DNA of 32,996 nucleotides from a virus (IMGVR_UViG_3300035693_000002:1-32996), one strand, 5' to 3'; shown: positions 311-25,206, counted from the stretch's first letter. Notes: generated by a model not told the origin, from the letters alone. Numbers and translations: made by a program.

Positions 311-2116
311 ATGCCTCACGTCCACGTCAGACACGACACCCCCGCCAAGCGATTGGACGTGTCGTGCGATTGGTCTGACAAAGAACTGATCAAGACGGTG
401 CCTGGCGCCCGCTGGGATGCGAACCGGACGGTCTGGCACGTACCGATGACTTGGGCTGCTGCCGTGCAGCTCAGAGGTACGTTCGGTCACCGCCTCACGA
501 TGGATGACGTCGTAAGGGATTGGGCGCGCGTTCGCAGAGAAGAGGTCGAGACGGCGCGCAAGTGGCACGACGTCATCGATCCTGGCGTGGAGGTCGAAGG
601 CCTCTACCCTTGGCAGGTCGCTGACTACTACTGGGCGAACGCCGCCGGCAGCGGGATGTTGCTCGGTAACGATCAGGGAACTGGCAAGACGATGGCCGTC
701 GAGGTCGCTCTCCGCAGTATGGAAGGCGCCCTGCCCGCCCTCGTCATCTGCCCGAATAGCGTCAAGCGAGTCTGGGAAGCTGAAGCGGCTCGAGCGATGC
801 CGGATGTCAACGTGTACGTCATCGGCGGGGGCGCTACTGCTCGACAGAAGACGATCGCTGCCGGACTCGCCGATTCGCGTGGCGTACTCGTCATCAACTA
901 CGAATCACTGCGATCTCACTCTAGGCTTGCGCCTTACGGCAGCATTCGGTTGAAGCGGTGCCAGGCTTGCGGCGGTGAAGACCCGAAGGTACGCCCCGCT
1001 CAGTGTCATAGTCACCACAAGGAACTGAACGGTACGGGCGTCATCAAATCGGTCGCGATCGATGAAGCGCACCGTTTGAAGGATCCGAAGAGTCAGCAGA
1101 CACGAGCCGTGTGGGCAGTCTGTCACGATCCCTCTGTGACACGTCGGATCGCCATGACCGGCACACCGATCGCGAATCACATCGGCGATCTCTGGTCGAT
1201 CATGCACGCCGTCGCGCCAGACGAATACCCGACACGTTCAGCCTTCCTCGACCGCTACGCACAGATGAGTTGGAACGCCTTCGGTGGACTCGATGTCGTC
1301 GGCCTTCGACAGGACCACGCTGCCGAGTTCTATTCCTTCTTCGACGCCCGGTACCGTCGCATCACCAAGGCGCAGGCTGCACCCTGGCTGCCAGATAAGT
1401 ACCGCAGCGTCAGGTACGTGTCACTGCCGACAAAGATGCTGAAGGCGTACCGGGAACTCGACGAGCAACTCATCACGCGGCTCGATGACGGAACGATCGT
1501 CTTCGCATCCAACAACCTCACGCAATCAACACGTCTCCTCCAGATGTCGTCTGCTTATGGGACAGTTGAGGCCGATGGACGGTACATCCTCACCGAGCCG
1601 AGTCCGAAATTGGACGTGATGGAGGAAATCCTTGCCGAGCGTGAGGGCCGTCCACTCGTTGTCGCGGCACTCAGTCGTCAACTCATCGATCTCGCCGCAA
1701 AGCGACTCGAGAAGAGTGGCGTATCGTTTGGCCTGATCACGGGCGCCATCCACGAGAGTGACCGGAGACGGAACCTCGATGCCTTCCAAGCAGGCCGGCT
1801 CGCGGCGTTGCTGGTGACCATCGGAGCGGGCGGTGAAGGCCTCACGATGACAGCGGCTGACACCATTCTCTTTCTCCAACGGTCCTGGAGTCTCATCCAG
1901 AACTTGCAGATGGAGGACAGGGTGCACCGCATCGGCAGTGAGATTCATGATGCCATCCACGTCATCGACGTCATCACGGAAGGCACGATTGAGGAGGACC
2001 AAATCTTGAGAATACATGACAAGTTGACACGCCTGGAAGAGGTCCGCCGTGACGGGCTTGACTTCGCTGTCGCCGGGTCCGACGATCTACGAGTAACAGA
2101 GAAGAGTACATCATGA
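311..2116 (+). CDS. SNF2-family DNA helicase/translocase
   Basis: This 601-residue superfamily 2 ATPase probably translocates on double-stranded DNA in phage replication or recombination. In order, one sees an N-terminal segment of about 95 residues that resembles the HARP-like region of SMARCAL1-type proteins, a Walker A motif GNDQGTGKT (119-127), a DEAH box (251-254), TGTP (283-286), and a C-terminal RecA-like lobe with GAGGEGLTMTAA and the arginine-finger motif DRVHRIGS. An insertion just before the DEAH box carries C217, C220 and C232 plus His233/235/236, which looks like a small zinc-binding knuckle. The ATG start is 22 nt after the upstream stop and has only a weak AGGA in front. The stop overlaps the next gene by ATGA. 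Helicases of this kind are common in actinophages. The family call is secure, but the exact role is inferred. Confidence 0.9.
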   Translation: MPHVHVRHDTPAKRLDVSCDWSDKELIKTVPGARWDANRTVWHVPMTWAAAVQLRGTFGHRLTMDDVVRDWARVRREEVETARKWHDVIDPGVEVEGLYPWQVADYYWANAAGSGMLLGNDQGTGKTMAVEVALRSMEGALPALVICPNSVKRVWEAEAARAMPDVNVYVIGGGATARQKTIAAGLADSRGVLVINYESLRSHSRLAPYGSIRLKRCQACGGEDPKVRPAQCHSHHKELNGTGVIKSVAIDEAHRLKDPKSQQTRAVWAVCHDPSVTRRIAMTGTPIANHIGDLWSIMHAVAPDEYPTRSAFLDRYAQMSWNAFGGLDVVGLRQDHAAEFYSFFDARYRRITKAQAAPWLPDKYRSVRYVSLPTKMLKAYRELDEQLITRLDDGTIVFASNNLTQSTRLLQMSSAYGTVEADGRYILTEPSPKLDVMEEILAEREGRPLVVAALSRQLIDLAAKRLEKSGVSFGLITGAIHESDRRRNLDAFQAGRLAALLVTIGAGGEGLTMTAADTILFLQRSWSLIQNLQMEDRVHRIGSEIHDAIHVIDVITEGTIEEDQILRIHDKLTRLEEVRRDGLDFAVAGSDDLRVTEKSTS

Positions 2117-2379
2117 ATCACTCCACCACCATCCAATGGACGCTCCGCCTCGCGGACGCCGCGCTCATTCATGACACCTTGCGCGACGCCGCCCGCCAGG
2201 CCGAGCAGAGCGCCGACTACTTGGAAGGCCCTCGCTACGCCGAACAAGAGCAGGCCAAACAAATGGCGAAGCCAAAAGAGGAACGGGGCGCACCGTGGAC
2301 CCTGTCCACGCATGATCTCGAACGCATCGGTGAGAGCAGAGCCAAGGCCGCCAGACTCTATGACCTTGCCGAGGCGTGA
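2113..2379 (+). CDS. Small hypothetical helical protein
   Basis: This 88-residue protein starts at an ATG that overlaps the helicase stop (ATGA), so it is translationally coupled to the helicase. It is rich in Ala, Glu, Arg and Gln and looks almost wholly alpha-helical, with a charged centre (EQEQAKQMAKPKEERG). I see no recognisable catalytic or metal-binding motif, signal peptide or membrane segment. It could be an accessory factor for the helicase or an unrelated small phage protein. Its reality rests on the overlapping start and stop at both ends and on the protein-like composition, not on recognised homology. Confidence 0.7.
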   Translation: MNHSTTIQWTLRLADAALIHDTLRDAARQAEQSADYLEGPRYAEQEQAKQMAKPKEERGAPWTLSTHDLERIGESRAKAARLYDLAEA

Positions 2380-2531
2380 TGGCGAAGGCAGAGATCACCG
2401 TCACGGTGAAGGACTTCGACAAGGTCAAGGAGCTGTTCGAAGCGGCCTCGGCCGTGCTTCCGTACGTACCTCGAGGGCGACGACAGTCACGTCTCGCTCG
2501 CGCACTCACGGCCTTCTCGGAGGAGTCATGA
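2379..2531 (+). CDS. Very small hypothetical protein (50 aa)
   Basis: A 50-residue frame begins at an ATG that shares one base with the preceding TGA (TGATG) and ends in a TGA overlapping the next ATG (ATGA). It therefore fills exactly the gap between its neighbours. The sequence begins MAKAEITVTVKDFDKVKELF and ends in an Arg-rich tail. The first half predicts a beta strand followed by a helix, a shape often seen in short phage proteins of unknown role. It is short enough to be missed by gene callers with a length cut-off. The evidence is the exact tiling and a sensible composition. Function is unknown. Confidence 0.65.
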   Translation: MAKAEITVTVKDFDKVKELFEAASAVLPYVPRGRRQSRLARALTAFSEES

Positions 2532-3082
2532 TCGTCGCATTCGACTTCGACGGCACTGTCTGCGACAGCATGGGCGGATTGGAAGACCTCGCCGTGAGTG
2601 TCATCCGACGTCACTGGGACATCGCTGACGAAGATGTGATCCGGGAACGGTACCGTGAGACGGCGGGCGACCCATTCGACGTACAGTTGCCGCGAATCAT
2701 GAGTTCCAACGGCCGTGAGGTGAGTATTGCTGCCGCGGAATACGCCATCGAGAAGATCAACGTAACAATGCAATCAGCACCGAAGTGGAACGTGATCGAC
2801 GTCATGAGTGACTTGGTCGTTACCGGTGCAGGGGTTCACGTTATCTCATCCACGACGGCGCCACTGATTCGTATGTGGCTGCGGAAGCACTTCGACAAAC
2901 TTGAGTATCGCATTCACTGTCACGGCATCGACATGGGAACGAAAGTCGAGAACCTCACGAGGTGCCAGCCGGACTACTTTGTCGGTGACAGCGTTAGTGA
3001 TTGCATTCGCGCCGCGCAAGTTGGAGTCAAATTCTTCCACGTTGACTCAATCGAGGACCTCCTCGCCGAGGTACTGAAGTGA
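2528..3082 (+). CDS. HAD-superfamily phosphatase
   Basis: This 184-residue haloacid dehalogenase-fold hydrolase has all four signature motifs. Motif I is DFDGT (Asp6 as nucleophile, Asp8 as acid/base), motif II is Ser107/Ser108 in VISSTTA, motif III is Lys139, and motif IV is GDSVSD (153-158). A small helical cap would lie between motifs I and II. Such proteins remove phosphate from small molecules or nucleotides, and in phages some act as 5'-nucleotidases. The true start is the ATG at 2528, which overlaps the preceding stop. The longer upstream open frame runs antisense in character and across the neighbouring genes. The gene is coupled by GTGA to the amino acid:DNA transferase-like gene, which suggests a role in nucleotide or modified-base metabolism. 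The substrate is unknown. Confidence 0.85.
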   Translation: MIVAFDFDGTVCDSMGGLEDLAVSVIRRHWDIADEDVIRERYRETAGDPFDVQLPRIMSSNGREVSIAAAEYAIEKINVTMQSAPKWNVIDVMSDLVVTGAGVHVISSTTAPLIRMWLRKHFDKLEYRIHCHGIDMGTKVENLTRCQPDYFVGDSVSDCIRAAQVGVKFFHVDSIEDLLAEVLK

Positions 3083-4014
3083 GTGCAGAGGCATACCGCG
3101 AACTCTTCGTCGACTTCTGCCGAGCCGAACTCGCGAGCGGCGGTCCCGATCCGCAGGTGACACTCGTCGGCCGTGCTGTCCGAGAGCGAACGGATCTCGT
3201 GCCGGCCGAACAGGCTGTCAGGTGCGGCTTGTTTGTCGTGCCATACACAGTCGGTGCCGGAGCAGTCCTTTGGAATCTCCGCGATTGGGGGCAGGCAGAT
3301 TGGGCGTCCTTTCTTATCGAGCACAAGGACGGATTCCCGATGCGACGTGAGCGTCGGTCGGTCTGGGGCGACGACCGTCGCAAGTTGATGGAGTCCGTCG
3401 TGTCATGGATCGACTTCTGCTATCGCGTCCTCCCTGACGCAGCCGACGGTACGTACGATGAGTTGTACGCGAGCATCGGCAAATACGTGAAGTACTTCGG
3501 CAGGTACGCGACGATGAAGGTCATTGAGACGATGCACCAGGCCGGCCTTCACGTCCCGGCGCAGTCGTCGATCGTCGCCAAAGGTGCGAAATACCCTCGG
3601 AAGATGCTCGCAATGTTATTCCCTGAGCATGCCGAACGGATGAACTCGAAAGCGAACGACACCGAGACGATCAAGCTCGCAAATGATCTCGCCTACATGG
3701 CGTATCAATTCATCGGCGAGCGCGCAACATGGTTCCAACTCGAGACCCTCCTCTGTAACGCTAGGCAGGCGCACGATGGTAAGTACCCGGGCCGGAGTCA
3801 CGATCGCGAGCTCGCGCACTGGCGGAAGGCCAATGGGTACTTCAGGCGAAAGGGGATGGACCTTCGAGAAGTCATCCCATTCTACGGACTGCGGCAGACG
3901 CTGTTCCCGCACGAGTATCTCGGCGAACTTGGCGCTCCGCCCTGGTGGCAGTCGAGAGAACACCTGGAAGTCGCCCAGAAAGAGAAGGTACGCGGTGCCC
4001 TGGCAGATCGATGA
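3079..4014 (+). CDS. Putative amino acid:DNA transferase-like DNA hypermodification protein
   Basis: This 311-residue protein starts at a GTG overlapping the HAD stop. Its all-helical sequence, with landmarks such as FCRAEL near the N terminus, KYFGRYATMKVIE in the middle, WFQLETLLCNARQ and a C-terminal LFPHEYLGE, matches what I remember of actinophage proteins. Those are annotated as alpha-glutamyl/putrescinyl thymine pyrophosphorylase or amino acid:DNA transferase (helix-hairpin-helix glycosylase-like fold). In characterised phages these enzymes replace a phosphate or pyrophosphate on a hydroxymethylated base in DNA with an amino acid or amine. The P-loop kinase four genes downstream would supply the needed phosphorylation. 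The assignment is from pattern memory without an alignment. A hypothetical helical protein is the alternative. Confidence 0.55.
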   Translation: MSAEAYRELFVDFCRAELASGGPDPQVTLVGRAVRERTDLVPAEQAVRCGLFVVPYTVGAGAVLWNLRDWGQADWASFLIEHKDGFPMRRERRSVWGDDRRKLMESVVSWIDFCYRVLPDAADGTYDELYASIGKYVKYFGRYATMKVIETMHQAGLHVPAQSSIVAKGAKYPRKMLAMLFPEHAERMNSKANDTETIKLANDLAYMAYQFIGERATWFQLETLLCNARQAHDGKYPGRSHDRELAHWRKANGYFRRKGMDLREVIPFYGLRQTLFPHEYLGELGAPPWWQSREHLEVAQKEKVRGALADR

Positions 4015-4411
4015 TCAACTGTGGGTGTGCGGCACACCGACTCTTGAGCAGACTGTTGCGCGCAATTGGACAGCAGGCGTCACGGTTTGCACCAAGTTGC
4101 CACCCACTGACGTGCGTAACGTACTTACATGGTGGCAGCACATTCCCGTGAGAGATGGGAAACGTCTTCAAGTTGATGACTATGTTCGTGCTCGTGATTA
4201 CGTCCTGGCAATGCTGCAGAACGGACATCGCGTCGTCATCAACTGTCTTGCCGGCCGTAATCGCTCATGTCTCATCGCCGCTCTCGTCCTGATGGAGCGA
4301 TATCAAATCGACGGCGCGAGTGCGGCGTACATAGTACGTGCTCGCCGACCGAACGCACTTGTCAACCCGGTCCACCTCGAGTGGCTCACGAGTCTGGAGG
4401 CTCGAACATGA
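3995..4411 (+). CDS. Dual-specificity (cysteine-based) phosphatase
   Basis: This 138-residue phosphatase has the CX5R active-site loop C84-LAGRN-R90-S and a likely general acid Asp54 in the IPVRDG segment. The usual His before the catalytic Cys is Asn here. Enzymes with this fold remove phosphate from protein Ser/Thr/Tyr, nucleotides, RNA caps or other small molecules. The chosen start is the GTG at 3995, which has a good purine-rich ribosome binding site (AGAGAAGG) 7 bases upstream and overlaps the preceding gene by 20 nt. The longer open frame upstream is a shadow of that gene. Its place between a putative DNA-modification transferase and a P-loop kinase suggests it acts on a phosphorylated intermediate, but the substrate could equally be a host protein. 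Confidence 0.8.
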   Translation: MPWQIDDQLWVCGTPTLEQTVARNWTAGVTVCTKLPPTDVRNVLTWWQHIPVRDGKRLQVDDYVRARDYVLAMLQNGHRVVINCLAGRNRSCLIAALVLMERYQIDGASAAYIVRARRPNALVNPVHLEWLTSLEART

Positions 4412-4611
4412 TTGAACGTCAAGCAATGCGCAGCACCAAGAAGGAACTCACCGATTGGCTCAACGAGGACGTCGTCGAGTTCGTCATCCGACGTCACAAG
4501 CACGACGGCCAGTCATATACCGAGATCGCGGCAGAACTGCGCAAGAGCGGATTCTCGGTGACGACGAAGATGCTCGTCAACTGGGTGTATGAGAGCAAGA
4601 GGACGAAGTGA
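4408..4611 (+). CDS. Small helix-turn-helix-like protein
   Basis: This 67-residue protein starts at an ATG overlapping the phosphatase stop, with GGAGG about 8 bases upstream. The C-terminal half (SYTEIAAELRKSGFSVTTKMLVNWVYE) reads like a helix-turn-helix of the kind found in small DNA-binding proteins and transposase or regulator N termini. The N terminus is charged. It may bind DNA as a regulator or serve as a specificity factor for its neighbours. Both ends are coupled to adjacent genes (ATGA and GTGA), so it is co-translated with the putative modification genes. No specific family is recognised. Confidence 0.7.
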   Translation: MIERQAMRSTKKELTDWLNEDVVEFVIRRHKHDGQSYTEIAAELRKSGFSVTTKMLVNWVYESKRTK

Positions 4612-4847
4612 TCTCCGACGACGATCGCGAATTATGCGGCCCGAGTGTCGACATCTGCGCATGGTGCAGCGATTCCGAGTGTGATGGGATCTCGTGCATC
4701 GCATCCCTTGACGTAGAGAATGCTGAGGATCACCCAGCGATCGAGCAACTCCAGGCATGGATCAGACGTGGTCGTTTCTTCGAGCAAGTTGAGCGAGTTC
4801 TTGCGGAATCTGAGAATCGTCCAATCCCTTCAAGGTGGGGATCATGA
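4608..4847 (+). CDS. Small cysteine-rich hypothetical protein
   Basis: This 79-residue protein has a GTG start overlapping the preceding stop (GTGA) and a TGA overlapping the kinase ATG. It is acidic at the N terminus and carries a cysteine cluster (CAWCSDSECDGISC, plus Cys10), which may bind zinc. The C-terminal half (IEQLQAWIRRGRFFEQVERVL) looks helical. No family is recognised. The conserved-looking spacing and tight coupling to the phosphatase and kinase genes argue that it is translated. Confidence 0.65.
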   Translation: MISDDDRELCGPSVDICAWCSDSECDGISCIASLDVENAEDHPAIEQLQAWIRRGRFFEQVERVLAESENRPIPSRWGS

Positions 4848-5614
4848 TCCTCAACATCCGCGGCTCGTCGTGCAGCGGCAAGTCCACCAACCTCTATCGC
4901 CTCCTGCAGGACTATCCCTCAGTTGAGGTGTGGGAGAAGGTCGGCTGGAACAAGGTGAAGCCTCGGCAGGTCGGTCACCTTCTCGCCGGCGGGTTGTTCA
5001 TCGTCGGTCCGTATGCATCGACAGCAAAGACCGGCGGGATGGACATGTTGATGCCGGGTAAGACCGAACTCGTCACGAGTTGGCTCGAACGAAATTGCGC
5101 GATCTATTCGCATACATGCTTCGAGAGCATGATGGCGAGCCTGGCGATCGGTCGCTATCACGAACTTCGCAAGCGCCTCGACGTTACGCTCGGCGTCCAG
5201 AACAGCATCACATTCGCCTTCCTTGACACACCGCTCGAGGTCTGTCGTGAGCGCATCCTGTCCAGGAATGACGGGAAGGGACCGACCGGGAAGGGCATCA
5301 ACGAGGAAGCGACCGTCGATCACCAGTGGAAGCGAGTCCGACAGATCAGGGAACGCTTCGTTGAGAAGGGCGAGCGGTGCGAAACCCTCCCGTACGAGTC
5401 GTCGTATGAGGTGATGATTGCCCTCCTCATGTCCGGCGGGTGGGACCCCTTCTCGTCACCACCGCCTCAGCACGCCAAGGTCAAGACTCGGGTCTCACTC
5501 GAGCAGGTGTACCGCGAAGTCGCGGCTGGTCAATACCCTGATGCGGACCCAGATCGCATCCAGCGATTCAAGAATGAAGTCGCGAAACACTCTGAGAAAT
5601 TCCCACAGGTGTAG
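4844..5614 (+). CDS. P-loop kinase, possibly acting on hydroxymethylated bases in DNA
   Basis: This 256-residue protein begins MILNIRG and runs straight into a Walker A motif, GSSCSGKST (residues 7-15). It continues with GPYASTAKTGGMD (55-67), an H-x2-FES segment near 90-95, a Walker B-like strand FAFLDTP (125-130) and Arg-rich lid residues (RERILSR, then GPTGKG). Phage P-loop kinases of this type are linked to DNA hypermodification, where they phosphorylate 5-hydroxymethylpyrimidines in DNA before amino acid or amine transfer. Nucleoside or polynucleotide kinase activity is an alternative. The ATG at 4844 overlaps the previous stop and follows AAGGTGGGG. A GTG at 4835 would add three residues. 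The transferase-like gene at 3079 supports the modification reading. Confidence 0.75.
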   Translation: MILNIRGSSCSGKSTNLYRLLQDYPSVEVWEKVGWNKVKPRQVGHLLAGGLFIVGPYASTAKTGGMDMLMPGKTELVTSWLERNCAIYSHTCFESMMASLAIGRYHELRKRLDVTLGVQNSITFAFLDTPLEVCRERILSRNDGKGPTGKGINEEATVDHQWKRVRQIRERFVEKGERCETLPYESSYEVMIALLMSGGWDPFSSPPPQHAKVKTRVSLEQVYREVAAGQYPDADPDRIQRFKNEVAKHSEKFPQV

Positions 5615-5618
5615 ATAT

Positions 5619-6089
5619 ATGACTAAGAGAAAGAACGGGTATCACCGCATCTTCATCGAAGCAAACGGCCCAGGACCATGGCCGTGCTACGGATGTGACG
5701 AGTTAGTCACTAAGTTGCTCATACACCACTTGGATAAGGACGCATCGAACAACGACCCAAACAATCTTGTCGCGATGCATAGTCCATGTCACCACAGATT
5801 GCATCAACTTGGAAGGAAACACTCAGACGAGTCGCGCCAGAAGATGAGTGAAACGCGATTAGGTAAGAAACTCTCGCCGGAACATAGCCGAAGAATTGGT
5901 GAAGGACATCGCGGGAAGATCATTTCGGCTGAACACCGAGCTGCATTACGAGCGTTTCGGCTCGGGAGGCCTATGGTGCAACGTCTGTTCAAGTGCGGTG
6001 ATTGTGACTTGATAACAATCGGATCAGCTCTTCATCCACACCAGAAAGCGACAGGGCACCAGGGTAAGACTGAGGTTGGCACGACATGA
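5619..6089 (+). CDS. HNH homing endonuclease with NUMOD3 repeats
   Basis: This 156-residue free-standing HNH endonuclease starts at an ATG four bases after the kinase stop, with no strong ribosome binding site. It has a CxxC pair (23-26), an HNH core (His36/His37, Asn49, Cys57-His-His) and three NUMOD3-type DNA-binding helix repeats (HSDESRQKMSETRLGK, LSPEHSRRIGEGHRGK, then ISAEHRAALRAFRLG). A C-terminal zinc-finger-like CxxC...H...H (Cys126, Cys129, His139/141/147) follows. Such enzymes cut DNA at specific sites and spread with their flanks. Its codon choice looks more AT-rich than its neighbours. The stop overlaps the next gene by ATGA, so it is neatly fitted into the operon rather than inside a visible intron. 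Confidence 0.88.
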   Translation: MTKRKNGYHRIFIEANGPGPWPCYGCDELVTKLLIHHLDKDASNNDPNNLVAMHSPCHHRLHQLGRKHSDESRQKMSETRLGKKLSPEHSRRIGEGHRGKIISAEHRAALRAFRLGRPMVQRLFKCGDCDLITIGSALHPHQKATGHQGKTEVGTT

Positions 6090-7030
6090 GGTACTTCACC
6101 AACTCGGAGATGTCCACCTTCCGCGACTGCCGTCGCAAGTGGTGGCTGGGGACATACCGTCGGCTGCGACCAAAGGCGCGAAAGTTGGTGGGGCCAGCAC
6201 CAATCGGATCTCGGACGCACCAGGCGCTCGCGCAGTGGTACGTGCCAGAGGGTACACCGCGAATGGACCCGCGTGAGGCGCTTGAGGCGATCATCACGCA
6301 GGACAGGGCGGACCTGCTCGCCTCACTCGGCGAGGATGAGGTCGCGAACGGTGAGACCGTGAAGGAGTTCGAGAAGGAGAATGACCTTGTCCGGGCGATG
6401 ATTGAGGGATACGTCCAGTGGCTCGAGGAGACCGGCATCGATAGCGACTACCGGGTCATTGGCAGTGAAGTCGCAGTTGAGTACAAGTTTGCTGATGGGC
6501 TCTCGATCGCAGGTCGGATCGACACGCAACTCGAGCGGATCAGCGATGGCGCACATCTCGGCATGGACCACAAGACGGGCGACTTCGGTAATCTCCGGAA
6601 GCAACTACCCATGGACGAGCAGATGTTGTTGTATGAGATTCTCAGGCGACTGACAACCGACGGTCGTAGCGACGGCATGCTGTTCAACATGATCCGGAAG
6701 GTGAAACGAACAGCCGCCGCCAAACCACCATTCTACGAGCGCCTCCCGGTGCCATTCAATCAGCACCAAATCAACAGCGCATGGTACCGGGTGATGGCGA
6801 TCATCAATGACATCCTCGCTGTGACCGCTCGGCTTGACTCAGGGGAGTCTCACCTTACTGCGGCGTACCCGCGCCCGAACAAGGATTGCTCGTGGAAATG
6901 TGAATTCTTTGCGGTTTGCACAATGTTCGATGATGGCAGTCGCGCTGAAGACATGATACAATCTCTATACGTCGTCGGCGATCCCCTCGACAGATACCCG
7001 GACCTTACAGGAGGGACCGCCGATGAATGA
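6086..7030 (+). CDS. Cas4/RecB-like PD-(D/E)XK nuclease with iron-sulfur cysteines
   Basis: This 314-residue exonuclease of the Cas4/AddB (PD-(D/E)XK) group starts at an ATG overlapping the homing endonuclease stop. Catalytic-type residues are visible as Glu128 (SEVAVEY), Asp146 (GRIDTQ) and Asp161-x-Lys163 (MDHKTG). One cysteine near the N terminus (Cys15) and three near the C terminus (Cys268, Cys272, Cys278) match the arrangement that holds a 4Fe-4S cluster in this family. These enzymes resect double-stranded DNA ends to give single strands. The next two genes, a Sak4-like annealase/recombinase and a single-strand binding protein, make a phage recombination module with it. No CRISPR array is present, so a CRISPR adaptation role is unlikely. 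Confidence 0.85.
   Translation: MRYFTNSEMSTFRDCRRKWWLGTYRRLRPKARKLVGPAPIGSRTHQALAQWYVPEGTPRMDPREALEAIITQDRADLLASLGEDEVANGETVKEFEKENDLVRAMIEGYVQWLEETGIDSDYRVIGSEVAVEYKFADGLSIAGRIDTQLERISDGAHLGMDHKTGDFGNLRKQLPMDEQMLLYEILRRLTTDGRSDGMLFNMIRKVKRTAAAKPPFYERLPVPFNQHQINSAWYRVMAIINDILAVTARLDSGESHLTAAYPRPNKDCSWKCEFFAVCTMFDDGSRAEDMIQSLYVVGDPLDRYPDLTGGTADE
6933..6962 (+). promoter_or_regulatory. Weak candidate promoter ahead of the Sak4-like gene
   Basis: An extended -10 element TGATACAAT (the TACAAT hexamer at 6957-6962) matches the one ahead of the helicase over 14 bases. ATGGCA (6933-6938) is a 4-of-6 match to the -35 consensus at 18 bases' spacing. Transcription would start near 6969, about 54 nt before the Sak4-like ATG. 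The site lies inside the end of the Cas4-like gene, so coding constraint could explain it. Confidence 0.25.
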
Positions 7031-7802
7031 CCCGAGGACGCTGAGCATCCTTGTTCACGCCGAGAGCAAGGTTGGAAAGTCCACGCTTGGGGCAACATGT
7101 CCCGCGCCGGTCTGCATCCTCGATGCTGAGGGTGGCACCAAATTCTTGCCAGGTAGCCCATACCTCACGCAGAGGCTCGGTCGGCCATTCGTAGTTACGC
7201 ACTGGGAACCGTCACAGCCACCACCAATTCCCGACGGAACATGGGATGCTGCCGTCGTGACAGTCCGTAGTTGGCAGGATGTCCAATACGCGTGGCAGTG
7301 GTTAGCGCAGGGCAATCATTACTTTGCGTCAGTCGTCGTCGATTCGATCACAGAAGTCCAACGTCGTGCCAAGGCAAACTTGAAGGGCACTGAAGCGATG
7401 TTGATCCAGGACTGGGGTCAACTCCTCACGGTTATGGACACCGTCATTCGCGGATTCCGCGACCTTACCATCGACCCGTATAACTCGATTCGGGTTGCGA
7501 TGTTCGTTGCTGAGACTCGACAGATCGACGGCAAGTTTCGCCCGTACATGCAGGGGCAAATCAGCACATCCCTTCCGTACTGGGTCGATGTTTGCGGGTA
7601 TCTCTATGTCGACCAGATCCCGGATGCCAACGGACAGAACACGCAGACTGTTCGTCGCCTGCTCGTCAATCAGACGGCACTCTACGAAGCTGGCGAACGA
7701 GTCCAAGGTCTCGTTGGCCCCGTCGTTGATCACCCTGACATCTACCAGATGCTTGAACTTATTTATCCGCACTACACACAACCACAGGAGACAAACGCAT
7801 GA
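7023..7802 (+). CDS. Sak4-like RecA-fold ATPase (single-strand annealing/recombinase)
   Basis: This 259-residue P-loop ATPase has a Walker A motif AESKVGKST (13-21) and a Walker B strand VVVDS (104-108), with the overall length and layout of phage Sak4-type recombinases (AAA_24/Rad51-like). Sak4 proteins anneal or exchange single strands and usually work with a dedicated single-strand-binding protein, which is the next gene here. The ATG has a strong ribosome binding site (AGGAGG around 7009-7015) and overlaps the nuclease gene by 8 nt. The stop overlaps the next ATG (ATGA). It is predicted to act in phage DNA recombination and recombination-dependent replication. Confidence 0.85.
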   Translation: MNDPRTLSILVHAESKVGKSTLGATCPAPVCILDAEGGTKFLPGSPYLTQRLGRPFVVTHWEPSQPPPIPDGTWDAAVVTVRSWQDVQYAWQWLAQGNHYFASVVVDSITEVQRRAKANLKGTEAMLIQDWGQLLTVMDTVIRGFRDLTIDPYNSIRVAMFVAETRQIDGKFRPYMQGQISTSLPYWVDVCGYLYVDQIPDANGQNTQTVRRLLVNQTALYEAGERVQGLVGPVVDHPDIYQMLELIYPHYTQPQETNA

Positions 7803-8557
7803 GCACAATCGACTTCGGCGCCCTCATGGCCGAGGCAGGCGAGGGATTCCAGCCGGTTCCATCAGGACCGTACAATGTTCAAGTCTCGAAAGCCGAGGCA
7901 GTCACATCATCGACGGGCAAGCCCATGATCAAGGTGCAACTCAGGATCATCGGCGGACCGCATGACGGCCGACTCCTCTTCGATCAGTTCGTGATCACGG
8001 CCGGCAATCCGAATGCTCTTGCATTCTTCTTCGATCACATGGCCGCATTCGGACTCGACCGTCCGTGGTTCGCCCAGAACCCGCCGATGGAGACGGTCGC
8101 CGCGACACTCATGAACCGGCAAGTCGCCGTCAGCGTGGGTATCAAGCAGTTCAAGGGCAGTGACCGCAACGAAGTCCAGGCATACAGTGCTATCGCTAGC
8201 GGGCAGATCGGCGGCGTCGCACCGACCGGATACGGTCCTGGCGCCGGTGTTCCGCAAGCCGCTCCAATTCCGCAAGTCGCGGCCCCCGTACCGGTCCCTC
8301 AGGCTCCCGTCGCGGCCCCTGTTGCACCTGCCCCCATCGCGCCGCAGGTCGTACCTCCGCCGGCCGCGATCGCGCCGCAGGCTCCCGTTGCTCCTCCGGC
8401 GCCAGTCGCCCAGGTCCCGCCGCCGGCACCTGTCGCACCTCCTGCGCCTGTCGCTCCCGTCCAGGAAGTGCCGCAGGCTCCAGTCTCACAGGCTCCCGTT
8501 GCTCCGGCACCGGTCCCGGCCGCTCCGTACTCGGCCAACGACGAAGAGCCGTTCTGA
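7799..8557 (+). CDS. Single-stranded-DNA-binding protein (Sak4-associated, DUF669-like)
   Basis: This 252-residue protein has an N-terminal beta-rich domain of about 135 residues (GPYNVQVSKAEAV ... MIKVQLRIIGGPHDGRLLFDQF) resembling the phage OB-fold proteins found beside Sak4. A Pro/Ala/Val linker of about 100 residues follows, and the last residues are NDEEPF. An acidic tail ending in Pro-Phe is the hallmark of bacterial SSB, which uses it to recruit partner proteins, so the same arrangement here strongly supports an SSB role. The start overlaps the Sak4-like stop by ATGA. The linker is longer and far more proline-rich than in typical short phage homologues. Confidence 0.82.
   Translation: MSTIDFGALMAEAGEGFQPVPSGPYNVQVSKAEAVTSSTGKPMIKVQLRIIGGPHDGRLLFDQFVITAGNPNALAFFFDHMAAFGLDRPWFAQNPPMETVAATLMNRQVAVSVGIKQFKGSDRNEVQAYSAIASGQIGGVAPTGYGPGAGVPQAAPIPQVAAPVPVPQAPVAAPVAPAPIAPQVVPPPAAIAPQAPVAPPAPVAQVPPPAPVAPPAPVAPVQEVPQAPVSQAPVAPAPVPAAPYSANDEEPF
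8231..8527 (+). repeat. Low-complexity Pro/Ala/Val linker-encoding region
   Basis: Short, imperfect repeats of words such as CAGGCTCCCGT and GCACCTGTCGC encode PQAPVA and PAPVAP units in the SSB linker. The irregular unit length and synonymous variation suggest drift by slippage and selection for composition rather than a recent clean tandem array. Confidence 0.7.
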
Positions 8558-9093
8558 TGGCGGCCCCACTCTCGATTGAGGTTCCGATCAGGATCAAGTC
8601 ACTCGACGTACCGATCAACCTGCAACTCAATGTCACCGCGAATCTCGCGGTCGAGATGGAGGCAGATCGGTCCAACTTCGAGGACGTGGGTGACTTCCAC
8701 CGTAAGTTCGACCTTCACACGAGTGACGACTGTGTCGGTCCCACCAACATCACAGACGAACTCATCGAGTTCAGAACGCAATTCATGCAAGAAGAGCTTG
8801 ATGAGTTCATCGACGCCATCAACCGGATGGATCACGCCGACGCATTTGATGCCCTCATCGATCTCGTCTATGTCGCGATGGGCACCGCCCACCTCTTCGG
8901 CTACCCGTGGCAGGATGGTTGGGACGAAGTCCAACGGGCGAACATGACCAAGCAGCGTGCAGCGACAGCAGATCAATCCAAGCGCGCCAGCACCTGGGAC
9001 GTCGTGAAACCTCCGGATTGGACGCCGCCGGACATCGCCGGCGTACTCAAGGAGGCCGGGTTCGATGTGTCATCACTAGAGGAGAGCAAATGA
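8557..9093 (+). CDS. MazG-like nucleotide pyrophosphohydrolase
   Basis: This 178-residue all-alpha protein has the EExxE motif (Glu79, Glu80, Glu83 in FMQEELDEF) and the partner acidic helix DALIDLVYVAMG (Asp98, Asp102). These bind magnesium in MazG and phosphoribosyl-ATP pyrophosphohydrolase-type enzymes. It also has the typical FGYPWQDGWDEVQRANMTK ending of the domain. Such enzymes hydrolyse nucleoside triphosphates to monophosphates and pyrophosphate, either cleaning up unwanted nucleotides or lowering alarmones. The ATG shares a base with the SSB stop (TGATG). The first 40 residues are beta-like and not part of the catalytic core, so an internal start near 8656 is possible. In a phage that modifies its DNA it might remove non-canonical dNTPs, which is inference. 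Confidence 0.82.
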   Translation: MAAPLSIEVPIRIKSLDVPINLQLNVTANLAVEMEADRSNFEDVGDFHRKFDLHTSDDCVGPTNITDELIEFRTQFMQEELDEFIDAINRMDHADAFDALIDLVYVAMGTAHLFGYPWQDGWDEVQRANMTKQRAATADQSKRASTWDVVKPPDWTPPDIAGVLKEAGFDVSSLEESK

Positions 9094-9530
9094 AGGAACT
9101 AACCCAATCCGAATACGATGAGTTGGTCCGCAAGGCCGGTAGCTACAACGACGACGCCCGCTTCGTGAAGATGATCGCGCGAGGCGCCGCCGTGGTGCTC
9201 GTCGTGCTTGTCGGTCTGATCTTCGTGTGGAAGCTGATCAACCCGCAGTTGATTCTCTACAAGGCCAACACGGAGAAGCAGTCACAAATCGCCATCTCGA
9301 AGGCGAAGGCCGACGCCGCCGTCCACGAGAAGCGCGCCGAGATCACGCGCGCCGAAGGTGTCGCTGAGGCCAACAAGATCATCGCCTCGTCGATCACGCC
9401 GGAGTACATCACCTGGCTATACGTCGACCAGCTCGATCGCATCGAAGGCCAGATCATCTACATCCCCACCGAGGCCGGCATCCCGATCCTTGAAGCCAAC
9501 CGACTCGTTCAGGAAATGCAAGCACCATGA
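9090..9530 (+). CDS. Membrane-anchored mini-prohibitin (SPFH C-terminal segment)
   Basis: This 146-residue protein has a short charged N terminus, one hydrophobic membrane segment (about 33-50) and a helical region rich in Ala, Lys and Glu. It then has a stretch that closely recalls the C terminus of prohibitin/HflC/stomatin proteins: AEGVAEANKIIASSITPEY, then a helix, then IIYIPTEAGIPIL. The SPFH/Band 7 core that normally lies between the membrane segment and this helix is missing. Prohibitin-like proteins form rings at membranes and control proteases such as FtsH. A phage version could oligomerise at the host membrane or modulate FtsH. The ATG at 9090 has AGAGGAG upstream and overlaps the MazG stop. 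A longer in-frame extension upstream is a shadow. Confidence 0.75.
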   Translation: MKELTQSEYDELVRKAGSYNDDARFVKMIARGAAVVLVVLVGLIFVWKLINPQLILYKANTEKQSQIAISKAKADAAVHEKRAEITRAEGVAEANKIIASSITPEYITWLYVDQLDRIEGQIIYIPTEAGIPILEANRLVQEMQAP

Positions 9531-9724
9531 ACTTCGGTAGCTACCGCGTCGTGGGCGTCTATGAGGACACAATCGAGTTGTGGGATGGTGAGTCCAGAAT
9601 TGAGCCGACTCACCCGGCGCCCGCGACGATGATCTGCCCTGTCGGCAACCCGCACGCATTCCAAGTCGACGACATCGTGGACCTGGTCGTCGTACTACGA
9701 GAACGGAAAGATCCGGATGGTTGA
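9527..9724 (+). CDS. Small hypothetical beta-rich protein
   Basis: This 65-residue protein starts at an ATG overlapping the previous stop (ATGA) and runs 8 nt into the methyltransferase gene. It reads as five or six short strands (YRVVGVYEDTIELW ... DIVDLVVVLRERK), suggestive of a small SH3-like or OB-like barrel. There is no recognised motif, no signal peptide and no membrane segment. Function is unknown. The coupling at both ends is the main evidence that it is real. Confidence 0.6.
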   Translation: MNFGSYRVVGVYEDTIELWDGESRIEPTHPAPATMICPVGNPHAFQVDDIVDLVVVLRERKDPDG

Positions 9725-10928
9725 CTTCATCGCCTGTCAGAGTTTCGCAGGTGGAATGGACATGGGTGCGACCCTGGCCGGTCTGCGGATGATCCACAAG
9801 GTCGAGAACGTTGGCGGGTTCGGTATCCCGAACTGCGACAAGAACCGGCACCTCCTCGGGTACGACTGGAAGTACCAGGCCGAGGCACCAGCAGGCTGGG
9901 AGGTTCTCGACGCAGAGGTCGTACTCGGCAACCCGCCGTGTAGCGGATTCTCAGTTGCAAGTAACGTGGAGTTCCGCGGTGCCGACAGTCCAATCAACCA
10001 CTGCATGTGGGACTTCGCCGACTATGTCGCACGAGTCAAGCCGCAGATCGCCGCGTTCGAGAGTGTCATGCCGGCGTACAGTCGTCCTGACGGTCGCAAG
10101 TTGATGGGTGACTTGCGGGAATACCTCGAAGCGATCTCGGGCCTCAAGTACGACCTCACGCACGTCAAGCACGACGCAGCAGCCGTTGGTGGACCGTGCA
10201 CTCGACGTCGGTACTTCTGGGTTGTCCACCGCATACCCTTTCGTGTCGATCCGACGCCGGTGACTCTGCAACCGACGTGGGGTGATGCGATCGGTGACCT
10301 CGTCGACATGCCAGGTGACAACTGGGAGTTCCAGCGGTACGGAGCGATTCCGTCGTCGCTGTGGGCGACGCATCGAGTGCGAGGGCTGGCAGGTACGGAC
10401 GGGCACTGGTCACCGCCACTCACCGACAGGCGTGGGAGTCGACTCGCCATCCTTCTTGAACAAGAGCCATGGGAGCCTGGCACGAATTACGAAGAGGTCC
10501 TCAGACGCAGGACAGTACGGATGGGCGGACATCCTGGTGAACCGTGGACACCGGATGAGATCGCTCAGCACGAACGACGGGGGTGGACATCCGGGTACTT
10601 TCCGACCACGAGATGGAAGTGGGACCGCCCGGGGTACGTGATCTACGGCGGCGCGATCGGCAACGTGATTCATCCGTACTTACCAAGACGAATCACGCAC
10701 CGTGAAGTTGCTCGAGCGATGGGATTCCCAGACACCTGGAAGATCGCGCCGCTCGCCGACGATAAAGGCCTCAAGGACTATTGGGGCAAAGGAATCACCG
10801 TACAGTGCGGACAGTTCCTCGGAAGGTACATCAAGCTTGCTGTCGAGGGTGACGTGTCCGAACTCCCGAAAGGTGCATCAGTCGGTGACAGGGAATGGTT
10901 CTACGATGTTCGTCCAAGGAGGAAATGA
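9717..10928 (+). CDS. Cytosine-C5 DNA methyltransferase-like protein
   Basis: This 403-residue protein has the motif order of C5-cytosine methyltransferases. It shows a SAM-binding motif I (FAGGMDMGATLAGL), catalytic motif IV GNPPCSGFS with the nucleophile Cys, motif VI FESV where most family members have ENV, and motif VIII CTRRRYFWV. A variable target-recognition stretch follows, then motifs IX/X (REVARAMGFPDTW and KGITVQCGQFLGRYI). It would transfer a methyl group to carbon 5 of cytosine, or act as a relative recruited to base modification. No restriction partner is nearby, so protection of phage DNA or feeding a hypermodification pathway is more likely than restriction-modification. The ATG overlaps the previous gene by 8 nt. 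Confidence 0.82.
   Translation: MVDFIACQSFAGGMDMGATLAGLRMIHKVENVGGFGIPNCDKNRHLLGYDWKYQAEAPAGWEVLDAEVVLGNPPCSGFSVASNVEFRGADSPINHCMWDFADYVARVKPQIAAFESVMPAYSRPDGRKLMGDLREYLEAISGLKYDLTHVKHDAAAVGGPCTRRRYFWVVHRIPFRVDPTPVTLQPTWGDAIGDLVDMPGDNWEFQRYGAIPSSLWATHRVRGLAGTDGHWSPPLTDRRGSRLAILLEQEPWEPGTNYEEVLRRRTVRMGGHPGEPWTPDEIAQHERRGWTSGYFPTTRWKWDRPGYVIYGGAIGNVIHPYLPRRITHREVARAMGFPDTWKIAPLADDKGLKDYWGKGITVQCGQFLGRYIKLAVEGDVSELPKGASVGDREWFYDVRPRRK
10916..10922 (+). promoter_or_regulatory. Strong ribosome binding site that decides the next start
   Basis: AAGGAGG is a perfect Shine-Dalgarno core. It lies 5 bases before the ATG at 10928 and only 2 before the ATG at 10925, so the second ATG of the ATGATG pair is the better start. 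Confidence 0.6.
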
Positions 10929-22411: not shown

Positions 22412-24616
22412 TTACAGAGGCCCGAGGCTTGCTTCTCGCGATTCAGCGGCCCCTGCGGGGTAAGATATCGCTGGCGCCAATGGCCCGCCGTCCTCGCGGA
22501 GGATCGCGAGCATTGCCTCGACGTCGGGTTGAGCATCCGCTGAAACATGATGAACAGCGTGTGTGAGAGCCCGCCCAGCGTCCGGGACACGACCTGCAGC
22601 TTGCGCGTAACGGACTACGAGCGCTGTTGCCGGGTCGTCCATCGTTGGCCGCATCACCTTTCCGTCGACAGGTGGATGATACCAGTGGAGGGCCGGCCCG
22701 TCGATCCGGTTGATACCGCCGCCAAGACACCCGGCTGCCAAATCGAATGCCCGATCTTCGTGTCCCCACTCGACGAATCGTTCGTCGTACCCGCCGAGTT
22801 GCTTCCAGAGCGTAAGCGGTATGGCATTCGCACCTGAGACATGATTCCGACGGCGACGGTTTGTCTTAGCGAGTTGGTGCGCATCGATCTTCTCCATCGA
22901 TCGTTTCTGCATTTGCCTTGTTGTCGCCGAACTGAGTCGCGTGTACGTCGTAAAGGCATGCGTCATCTGTCCGGTCACCATCGCAGAACGGGCAGCGTCG
23001 TAGATTTGCACATGGGGCACCCATGTGTCAGCATCAACGAATACCAGAACGTCTGCGTTACCCGCCCACCGAGCCGCGTCATTGCACATCGCCGACCGGC
23101 TATCTCCTACCCCCTCGAAGATCGGCAGGTTGGCAGCCTTCCACCAACGAACGCACCACTCATGAGCATTACGCCGCCATGGTTCATCTGGGTTGTTCCA
23201 CGGCATGCACAGAGCAATACGAAGTTCGGGCATCACGATCGTAGGCGATTCGGGTTTGACTGTCGGACGAATACGCTGTCGCTTCAGATTGGCTGCATGC
23301 TGGGCAGGAGTGCCCCAACTGTGGTGCCACTTATGTTCGAGGAAGACCCAGGGTTGCCCGCCGCTCTGGCCGAGTCGCGCCTTCTCTAGGTAGTGCGCTG
23401 GATAGAACGCACCTGGCGGAAGGAGGAGAACATCGTCACGGCCGGGGAGGATCTCGGTCGTTCCACCCGGACCTGACGCCCATGCATCCTGACCGCCCTC
23501 AATCGCCTCACGGGCACGCCCGATCAGATCAAGCCAGGCTGGGTGCTCTTTGACAGCGCCCATCACGGCGTCGGGTACGACCTTCTCATCTTCCCAAGCG
23601 GCGAACGCCTTGCACTGGAGGAGTGGATCAAGCGGTCGGTATGGTTCGACGTCGCTGTCGACGTATACGCCTCCGTGCGTGTAAATCGCCTCGAGCCGGA
23701 TGAGACCGGCCTTCTGCGCTCCATTCTGACATCGCTCGAAGAGATCGCCTGTCATCGGCCAATCAACCGGATCAATCGGCTCACGGTACGTTCTGAGGTC
23801 CCAGTCCGGATGGAGTTCTCCGAATTGCTCCCACCACCCCTCAACCTGCGCGCTCGTCACTTCAGGGACGGTCCGGTGGAGAATCCGAGGGATCGTACCG
23901 ACTGCCCGTTCATCGTTGAGATTGAGATTGAGTAGACGCTGGAGTCGTTCTGGATTCCACCTGACGGCTTCGTAACGACGCTTGAGTGCCTGATTCCGTA
24001 TATAGGTGACAGACTTGCGTGACGCTTCGGGGGATTCTGGGTGCCAAAGATGGAAGCACTCACCCTGCACATTGTGGATCGGCATGTTGGTCATCGTTTC
24101 GCACGCAATGTGAAACCCAGTGTCTTCGAATCCCCAGCCGACAAATCGCTCATCAAATCCGCCAACCGCGTCCCACGTCGATCGCGACACTGCCACAGCG
24201 CAACTCACACTATCGGTGTACGTCCGACGGATCATCCTACTGCGGTGCCAGTCGCCGACGTATCCGTCGAGAATCGACATCGTGGCATGTTGACTCATCA
24301 TATGACGTTTGTCGTGCGCGACAGCGAGTCCGCCTGTCCTGACGGCGTATTCGATGGCTGTACGAATATCTGCCGGATTACTGACTGTGTCACTGTCAAT
24401 GATCAATGCCGCGTCCCATCGACCGTCAGCGTCAGCGTCAGCAAGTACAGATGCGGTATTGATCGCTGCAGATCTGTTGAAGGGGCCTGCATCATGATGA
24501 CCCTCATAGATGGGCATAGCCGTGTGATGTTCGAGCCATCGCTTGCGACAGAACTCCCAAAGTCGGTCCCGATGGCCATGATCGAGTCGTCGTGGTACGA
24601 GGATGACGATCCTCAC
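22412..24616 (-). CDS. Three-domain glycosyltransferase
   Basis: This 734-residue protein carries three glycosyltransferase domains. Domain A (1-220) has DSD at 74-76 and GGFDERFVGWGFED (152-165), as in GT2/GT7-C (galactosyltransferase-like) enzymes. Domain B (about 241-440) is GT32-like: HRTVPEV, the GLIRLEAIYTHGGVYVDSD run (DSD 320-322) and HKWHHSW. Domain C (about 464-650) repeats the layout of A, with DAD at 528-530 and GGYDERFVEWGHED (608-621). Together they could build a chain of several sugars on one acceptor. The start is the GTG at 24616, overlapping the methyltransferase stop (GTGA), not the longer upstream ATG. Its location among virion genes suggests the acceptor is a phage structural protein. 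Confidence 0.88.
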   Translation of the reverse strand: MRIVILVPRRLDHGHRDRLWEFCRKRWLEHHTAMPIYEGHHDAGPFNRSAAINTASVLADADADGRWDAALIIDSDTVSNPADIRTAIEYAVRTGGLAVAHDKRHMMSQHATMSILDGYVGDWHRSRMIRRTYTDSVSCAVAVSRSTWDAVGGFDERFVGWGFEDTGFHIACETMTNMPIHNVQGECFHLWHPESPEASRKSVTYIRNQALKRRYEAVRWNPERLQRLLNLNLNDERAVGTIPRILHRTVPEVTSAQVEGWWEQFGELHPDWDLRTYREPIDPVDWPMTGDLFERCQNGAQKAGLIRLEAIYTHGGVYVDSDVEPYRPLDPLLQCKAFAAWEDEKVVPDAVMGAVKEHPAWLDLIGRAREAIEGGQDAWASGPGGTTEILPGRDDVLLLPPGAFYPAHYLEKARLGQSGGQPWVFLEHKWHHSWGTPAQHAANLKRQRIRPTVKPESPTIVMPELRIALCMPWNNPDEPWRRNAHEWCVRWWKAANLPIFEGVGDSRSAMCNDAARWAGNADVLVFVDADTWVPHVQIYDAARSAMVTGQMTHAFTTYTRLSSATTRQMQKRSMEKIDAHQLAKTNRRRRNHVSGANAIPLTLWKQLGGYDERFVEWGHEDRAFDLAAGCLGGGINRIDGPALHWYHPPVDGKVMRPTMDDPATALVVRYAQAAGRVPDAGRALTHAVHHVSADAQPDVEAMLAILREDGGPLAPAISYPAGAAESREASLGPL

Positions 24617-25206
24617 GACGGAGCTGTCCACTCGCAGATCGCGACGGCATTCGCCCACGGACCGTATTCGCTAACAACCGGAAACTCATCCTGCAACCAC
24701 CCATCGCCGCATCGACTGATGGTGCATGATCGCGTGAAATCCATGAGACCGCGATTGACCATATCATCGAGACTGCTATCAACGCCAGTCGGGAACGTCA
24801 CAAGCAACTTCCCGCCAGGACGGGTGAGTCCTTTCAGTACGCCTACCGCAGCAGTACCCGCGCCTGTGTGTTCGATCGTCGAAATCGAACAGACCCACGG
24901 GTACGTGATCTTGCCACCGCGAGGCAATGGCTGAAGATTGAGCAAATCTGCTTCGATCACCTGCTGTCGTTGGTACCAAGCCGACTTCTCATACAGATCG
25001 ATGACATTGTGCCGCCGTCGATCATAATGGCCGAGTACGTTGCCGACCTCGAGGCCGCGGTGGATCATGTTTGCAGGGATCTGAGTCTCGAGCCACCAGT
25101 GCGCGATCGCAACCTCGACCATCCGTTCATTCAGGTGCGTGAGGTTGTACATGTGAAGGAAGTACGGAAGGATCTCATCATGATACTCGAACTCGGTGTC
25201 AGACAT
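24613..25206 (-). CDS. SAM-dependent methyltransferase (class I)
   Basis: This 197-residue protein has a class I methyltransferase signature: GLEVGNVLGHY (51-61, motif I), VIDLYE (68-73, the acidic residue that binds the ribose), an EADLLNL segment and WVCSISTIEHTG, then GGKLLVTFPTG (post-motif strand). It resembles small methyltransferases found with glycosyltransferases in polysaccharide clusters. It sits between the Stealth-like gene (8-nt overlap, AAGGAG ribosome binding site) and the triple glycosyltransferase (GTGA overlap). It may methylate the sugar that the neighbours attach. The acceptor is not known. Confidence 0.78.
   Translation of the reverse strand: MSDTEFEYHDEILPYFLHMYNLTHLNERMVEVAIAHWWLETQIPANMIHRGLEVGNVLGHYDRRRHNVIDLYEKSAWYQRQQVIEADLLNLQPLPRGGKITYPWVCSISTIEHTGAGTAAVGVLKGLTRPGGKLLVTFPTGVDSSLDDMVNRGLMDFTRSCTISRCGDGWLQDEFPVVSEYGPWANAVAICEWTAPS

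Follow-up and report, generated by a model that had tools for sequence, protein, structure and literature searches.

The question posed by this 32,996-nt stretch of viral DNA (IMGVR_UViG_3300035693_000002:1-32996; hereafter the window) is what a run of six closely packed genes at 2528-5614 does to the phage DNA, and to which base. The best-studied systems that attach amino acids or amines to DNA bases act on thymine. The original prediction was that the run encodes a DNA-base hypermodification module, and this was borne out: it includes an amino acid:DNA transferase (ADDT) as well as a DNA kinase of the hydroxymethyl-pyrimidine type. We read the cluster as that half of a cytosine hypermodification pathway which operates on DNA itself, including the proposed kinase, ADDT and phosphatase (DSP) steps, and judge the probability of this, from sequence, to be about 0.7. 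The families, residues, gene order and co-occurrence are established computationally; from them we infer the base, the amino acid, the substrate of the phosphatase and a protective role. Most of the evidence comes from IMG/VR relatives; tblastn against named phages gave no match for the ADDT or for the DSP of one relative, L030.

The kinase and the transferase

The kinase (4844-5614, plus strand) carries the P-loop motif GSSCSGKST and a C-terminal extension. As predicted, profile-profile comparison assigns it to the HMUDK (5-hydroxymethyl-pyrimidine DNA kinase) family: hhalign aligned it with the M6, CBA120 and Sonora kinases at 99.8% probability (E 5.6e-29) and tblastn linked it to M6-like kinases (E about 1e-8), whereas Pfam alone leaves it sub-threshold (HMUDK_HMUD1, PF18748; 21 bits, cut-off 27). 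No HMUDK_hel domain was found, unlike in M6-type systems, and the kinase led to no bacterial-host or prophage copy in the genome contigs searched. PHROG phrog_800 and several RefSeq records, including that for M6 gp54 (L033:11686-12249), call this kinase family 'terminase small subunit'; on M6-like DNA kinases the label looks like a propagated misnomer.

The transferase (3079-4014, plus strand, GTG start) scored 31.0 bits against Pfam ADDT (PF18724; cut-off 26.2), and hhalign matched it to other ADDTs with a probability of 99.9 (E 8.6e-35). An AlphaFold2 model (pLDDT 86.8) had its best Foldseek match in the PDB to 8z2m/8z2n (probability 1.00, TM-score about 0.52, E about 0.01), the 5-phosphomethyl-dU (5-PmdU) glycinyltransferase gp46/PUGT of phage PaMx11. 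Because the E value is only about 0.01, the modelled resemblance to PUGT is fold-level rather than close. The transferase assignment of the original prediction is thereby upheld by Pfam score, profile alignment and a PUGT-like fold, and the predicted activity is that of a family acting on a phosphomethyl base.

ORF calling recovered all six genes on the plus strand, and the overlaps between them are real: 4 nt, except for 20 nt between ADDT and DSP. The special coupling that had been read into these overlaps did not hold up. Overlaps of 1-8 nt also link nearly every gene across 311-10928, which makes this a single densely packed early operon with no coupling peculiar to the six genes; 4-nt overlaps, common throughout, were rejected as the mark of a special unit. 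Stronger evidence for a unit lies in the gene order: relatives whose ADDT is as little as 33-41% identical still have ADDT-DSP-(small gene)-kinase. One could suppose that these are plain early-operon genes for nucleotide metabolism or repair, packed without a joint pathway, and the short overlaps throughout the operon agree with this. We consider it most improbable, since ADDT, DSP and kinase are linked across highly divergent genomes as their neighbours change, and the ADDT fold matches that of a DNA-base glycinyltransferase.

The synthase outside the window and the target base

The window is a fragment of a longer IMG/VR contig, G001 (3300035168_000171, 62,152 bp), where it occupies 23066-56061 at 100% identity. 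Because the ends of G001 overlap each other by 915 bp at 93.5%, the contig is probably a near-complete genome. On its left side, reading towards the window, G001 encodes first a nucleotide kinase and a thymidylate-synthase homologue, next a dCMP deaminase and a family A DNA polymerase, and finally a RuvC-like resolvase, after which comes the window's helicase. The polymerase and resolvase are so named from their place in the gene order and their resemblance to annotated genes of Kurnik and DSL-LC01. The original prediction had seen no enzyme that makes the hydroxymethyl group; the genome corrects this, as a search for a thymidylate-synthase-like enzyme found the homologue at G001:19504-20364, in the same phage and 2.7 kb beyond the left edge of the window. 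It lies between the nucleotide-kinase-like gene and the deaminase (PF00383, 64 bits), whose gene overlaps the synthase stop. A TET/JBP dioxygenase was rejected as the hydroxyl source, PF12851 having no match in G001-G007.

In an alignment with E. coli ThyA, the residues of the G001 synthase include C146, T147 and D177, and also R166, H207 and Y209. C146/T147/D177 likewise occurs in the T4 dCMP hydroxymethylase gp42 and in the synthases of DSL-LC01, Kurnik and Sixama, whereas N147/N177 is found in the dUMP hydroxymethylases of SPO1-like Goe9 and M6 and in the synthases of Sonora, CBA120 and others. Asn to Asp at position 177 is the classical dUMP-to-dCMP switch. The G001 enzyme has the catalytic Cys146 and the Asp177 of the T4 gp42 type and not the active site of a dUMP hydroxymethylase; its closest solved relative is the CMP 5-hydroxymethylase MilA (E 3e-16). 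Since T147/D177 matches T4 gp42 and differs from the N/N of the dUMP enzymes, we predict cytosine, not thymine, as the target base. In the MetaGPA study, an independent analysis, positions 177 and 147 best separated modified-cytosine from unmodified contigs (PMC8670742).

That paper, citing Liu and Santi 1992, states that N-to-D at 177 alone converts a thymidylate synthase into a dCMP methylase (PMC8670742). The G001 synthase might then make 5-methyl-dCMP, a C5-cytosine methyltransferase homologue, which is indeed present in the operon, adding to this, and the kinase, ADDT and phosphatases would serve some other purpose or be remnants. This is very improbable: the kinase and ADDT families need a hydroxymethyl handle and both are intact and conserved across phages, and MilA is a hydroxymethylase.

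A survey of 80 IMG/VR virus loci, gathered with a kinase profile that excluded the window's kinase, also bears on the base. The synthases near these kinases split cleanly into N/N (U-type, 49 loci) and T/D (C-type, 10 loci). ADDT was beside or near the kinase in 10/10 T/D loci versus 3/49 N/N loci (p = 5e-9, raw), and ran into the kinase gene in nine of the ten. After clustering of the kinases, the C-type and U-type counts were 8/8 versus 3/35 at 90% (p = 1e-6), 6/6 versus 3/32 at 80%, 6/6 versus 3/29 at 70% and 4/4 versus 3/18 at 60% (p = 0.005). An ADDT profile built from U-type seeds alone still recovered most C-type loci, so the link is no artefact of seed choice. In the kinase tree, C-type synthases accompany two separate clades, that of G001 and that of G013 (sister to the N/N phage LysYB1), and the cytosine version therefore appears to have arisen more than once. 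G013, an unrelated phage, carries within 4.5 kb (L044 7475-11967) an ADDT, a TET-associated-glycosyltransferase-like protein, a small HAD, an HMUDK kinase and a T147/D177 synthase.

The base could nevertheless be uracil/thymine. The adjacent dCMP deaminase would in that case turn hydroxymethyl-dCMP (hm-dCMP) into hm-dUMP, leaving the kinase and ADDT to act, as in M6-type phages, on 5-hydroxymethyluracil (5hmU). The overlap of the deaminase gene with the synthase stop fits this, as do the 5hmU specificity of the tested HMUDK (PMC6457204) and the use of ADDT by five U-type loci (L042, L055, L080, L083 and L114). We think it unlikely: phages that need hm-dUMP encode the N147/N177 dUMP enzyme directly, the C-type synthase and ADDT associate in the survey, and the deaminase also lies beside T147/D177 synthases in phages bearing glycosyltransferases.

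Several points weigh against a cytosine pathway of the kind we propose. The conversion of hm-dCMP by the neighbouring deaminase is conceivable. The commercial 5-HMUDK phosphorylates 5hmU and not 5-hydroxymethylcytosine (5hmC) (PMC6457204); the G001 kinase would therefore need a different base preference, which sequence cannot reveal. The Pfam scores are sub-threshold for the kinase and only modestly over the cut-off for the ADDT. In a larger set that also took in the seed loci, single-linkage clustering at 45% joins the groups together and the C-type/ADDT association ceases to be significant; it owes part of its strength to phylogeny. Finally, the DSP occurs in the unbiased survey only in L083 and L131, its other cases coming from seeds of this cluster.

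The phosphatase and the proposed pathway

The DSP/CX5R phosphatase (3995-4411, plus strand, GTG start) scored 46.3 bits against Pfam DSPc (PF00782). It has the CX5R loop, as CLAGRNR, and the general-acid Asp, and the catalytic residues D54, C84 and R90 are invariant in seven aligned homologues. Its AlphaFold2 model (pLDDT 94.5) has a clean DSP fold. Across the G001 clade (34-80% identity) the DSP gene immediately follows ADDT and precedes the kinase, with nothing larger than small genes intervening; an HNH-like ORF separates it from ADDT in L030. In the divergent loci L055 and L131 it again directly follows ADDT and precedes the kinase; in L083 it directly follows ADDT with the kinase further on; and in L042 one methyltransferase gene intervenes between ADDT and DSP, which overlaps the kinase. 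Because the synthases of L042, L055 and L083 are of the N/N kind, the DSP tracks ADDT rather than a particular base. In no ADDT-negative locus of the larger set, seed loci included, was a DSP found. Since most C-type loci lack it and the unbiased survey has only the two cases, the DSP is accessory rather than obligatory.

From this linkage, the CX5R phosphatase looks like a genuine partner of the hypermodification pathway. The most economical role would be to strip phosphate from phosphomethyl bases left unconverted by ADDT; we suggest editing or recycling on the grounds of the ADDT linkage, the conserved catalytic residues and the lack of another obvious substrate. That the DSP merely hitchhikes beside ADDT, as a nucleotide phosphatase or as a protein phosphatase with a signalling or host-directed role, is a possibility to be taken seriously, though not one we favour. 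The best Foldseek matches of the model are protein phosphatases (TkPTP, TM-score 0.83, and also MKP5), and actinophages have DSPs and PTPs in other contexts; yet wherever the DSP occurs in the surveyed loci its gene closely follows ADDT, and it does so in loci of either base type. We found no description of a DSP phosphatase in phage DNA hypermodification in the open-access papers searched, although an earlier mention is possible.

A pathway in which the DSP edits or recycles would run as follows. The synthase homologue, as predicted from its active-site residues, would convert dCMP to 5-hydroxymethyl-dCMP. The adjacent nucleotide kinase and host enzymes would take this to hm-dCTP for incorporation by the phage PolA, and a MazG-like protein may drain dCTP. 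In DNA, the 4844-5614 kinase would convert 5hmC to 5-phosphomethylcytosine, its family being as described and its base presumed. ADDT would then swap the phosphate for an amino acid, the analogy with PUGT making glycine the likeliest, and the DSP would dephosphorylate unconverted phosphomethyl bases. The final product would shield the phage DNA from restriction and similar defences.

The thymidine systems of M6, PaMx11, ViI/CBA120 and PhiW-14 (HMUDK with aGPT-PPlase/PUGT) similarly have a synthase homologue, an HMUDK-family DNA kinase and a transferase that puts an amine or amino acid in place of the phosphate; among solved folds, PUGT is the nearest to ADDT. In contrast to these systems, the synthase here is T147/D177 and not N/N, HMUDK_hel is absent, the transferase is of the ADDT clade, and DSP and HAD phosphatases are present. 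The glucosylated hydroxymethylcytosine of T4 and the 5-carbamoyloxymethylcytosine of MetaGPA also involve a dCMP hydroxymethylase with Asp177 and MazG-like and dCMP deaminase partners (PMC8670742), but there the hydroxyl is glycosylated or carbamoylated; here it is predicted to be phosphorylated and then replaced by an amino acid. ADDT also adjoins a kinase in the TET/JBP, P-loop nucleotide kinase 3 and ADDT cassettes exemplified by Gordonia phage CaiB. In those, the TET/JBP-like protein (a sub-threshold Pfam match) presumably introduces the hydroxyl at the DNA level, the kinase is of another Pfam family, and the stretch seen has no DSP; no TET/JBP protein was found in G001. CmoX/CmoY in phage S-B43 makes 5-glycylcarboxymethylcytosine, likewise a glycine-type addition to cytosine, but uses Cx-SAM and an amide ligase (PMC12783734); CmoA was not found in G001.

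A cytosine base served by a kinase fed from a dCMP hydroxymethylase, an ADDT and an in-line phosphatase seems new relative to the thymine systems. We suggest tentatively that it represents a widespread phage branch in which an HMUDK-family kinase and ADDT act on 5hmC to give an amino-acid-substituted cytosine, with DNA-base phosphatase editing in some lineages. If this is true, amino-acid hypermodification chemistry known for thymine extends to cytosine, with kinases and transferases of new base specificity and a new class of modified nucleoside in phage DNA; the base can be predicted from sequence by a simple rule (T147/D177 or N/N, together with ADDT); and a phosphatase acting on a DNA base would bring a novel type of step, editing or reversal, into a hypermodification pathway. 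Such enzymes would be useful labelling tools, the available kinase being inactive on 5hmC.

Other genes of the operon and the window

Among the extra proteins once suggested as new pathway parts, the CX5R phosphatase gained support; the HAD and Cys-rich proteins did not, and together with the helix-turn-helix-like (HTH-like) protein they were rejected as core parts for lack of conservation. The HAD-superfamily phosphatase (2528-3082, plus strand; DxDGT; HAD_2, PF13419, 24.2 bits, cut-off 23.8) has counterparts of 67% identity in G002/G003 and L003-L007 and is absent upstream of ADDT in L028 and L031. It is thus confined to close relatives and optional, perhaps an accessory for nucleotide trimming. 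A shared origin with the HAD beside the G013 kinase was rejected, as the two align well only at the DxDGT motif. The small HTH-like protein (4408-4611, plus strand) has no significant Pfam family and fills a variable slot between DSP and kinase (identity 58% in G002, 51% in L031 and 25% in L030), which in L028 and L055 holds an unrelated small ORF. The small Cys-rich ORF (4608-4847, plus strand), of no family, is specific to this phage, occurring only in identical contigs and being absent from all 74% relatives.

Further along the operon, the MazG-like nucleotide pyrophosphohydrolase (8557-9093, plus strand; PF01503, 59.9 bits) is a possible dCTP remover; MazG-like domains co-occur with thymidylate synthase homologues in modified-cytosine contigs (PMC8670742). 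The C5-cytosine methyltransferase homologue (9717-10928, plus strand; PF00145, 62.7 bits) has GKG in place of GNS in motif X, i.e. Lys at the position of HhaI Asn304, an S-adenosylmethionine contact. The homologues of Kurnik, DSL-LC01 and Forza show no clear equivalent of HhaI Glu40. The same family is found in Kurnik, DSL-LC01 and 13 Gordonia phage records, all of which also have thymidylate-synthase homologues; T147/D177 was verified in Kurnik, DSL-LC01 and Sixama. Because of this co-occurrence, the protein may act on or with 5hmC instead of carrying out plain methylation. A CmoA/CmoX carboxymethyl route was rejected: CmoA is missing, and the protein has NPPC and not SPPC, and Lys and not Arg at the Asn304 position. 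In some relatives a flavin-dependent thymidylate synthase, ThyX, lies between the MazG and methyltransferase genes (L030:5785-6918; L031:12153-12962, the latter called from sequence likeness only); it was not found in G001 or G002.

Directly 3' of the kinase is an HNH/NUMOD3 homing-type endonuclease (5619-6089). In relatives, its homologues occupy different junctions within this operon, which suggests a mobile gene. In the structural module, 22412-24658 (minus strand) encodes a 748-aa protein that combines two galactosyltransferase-C domains with a DXD sugar-binding domain (PF02709, PF04488), a candidate virion-glycosylating enzyme.

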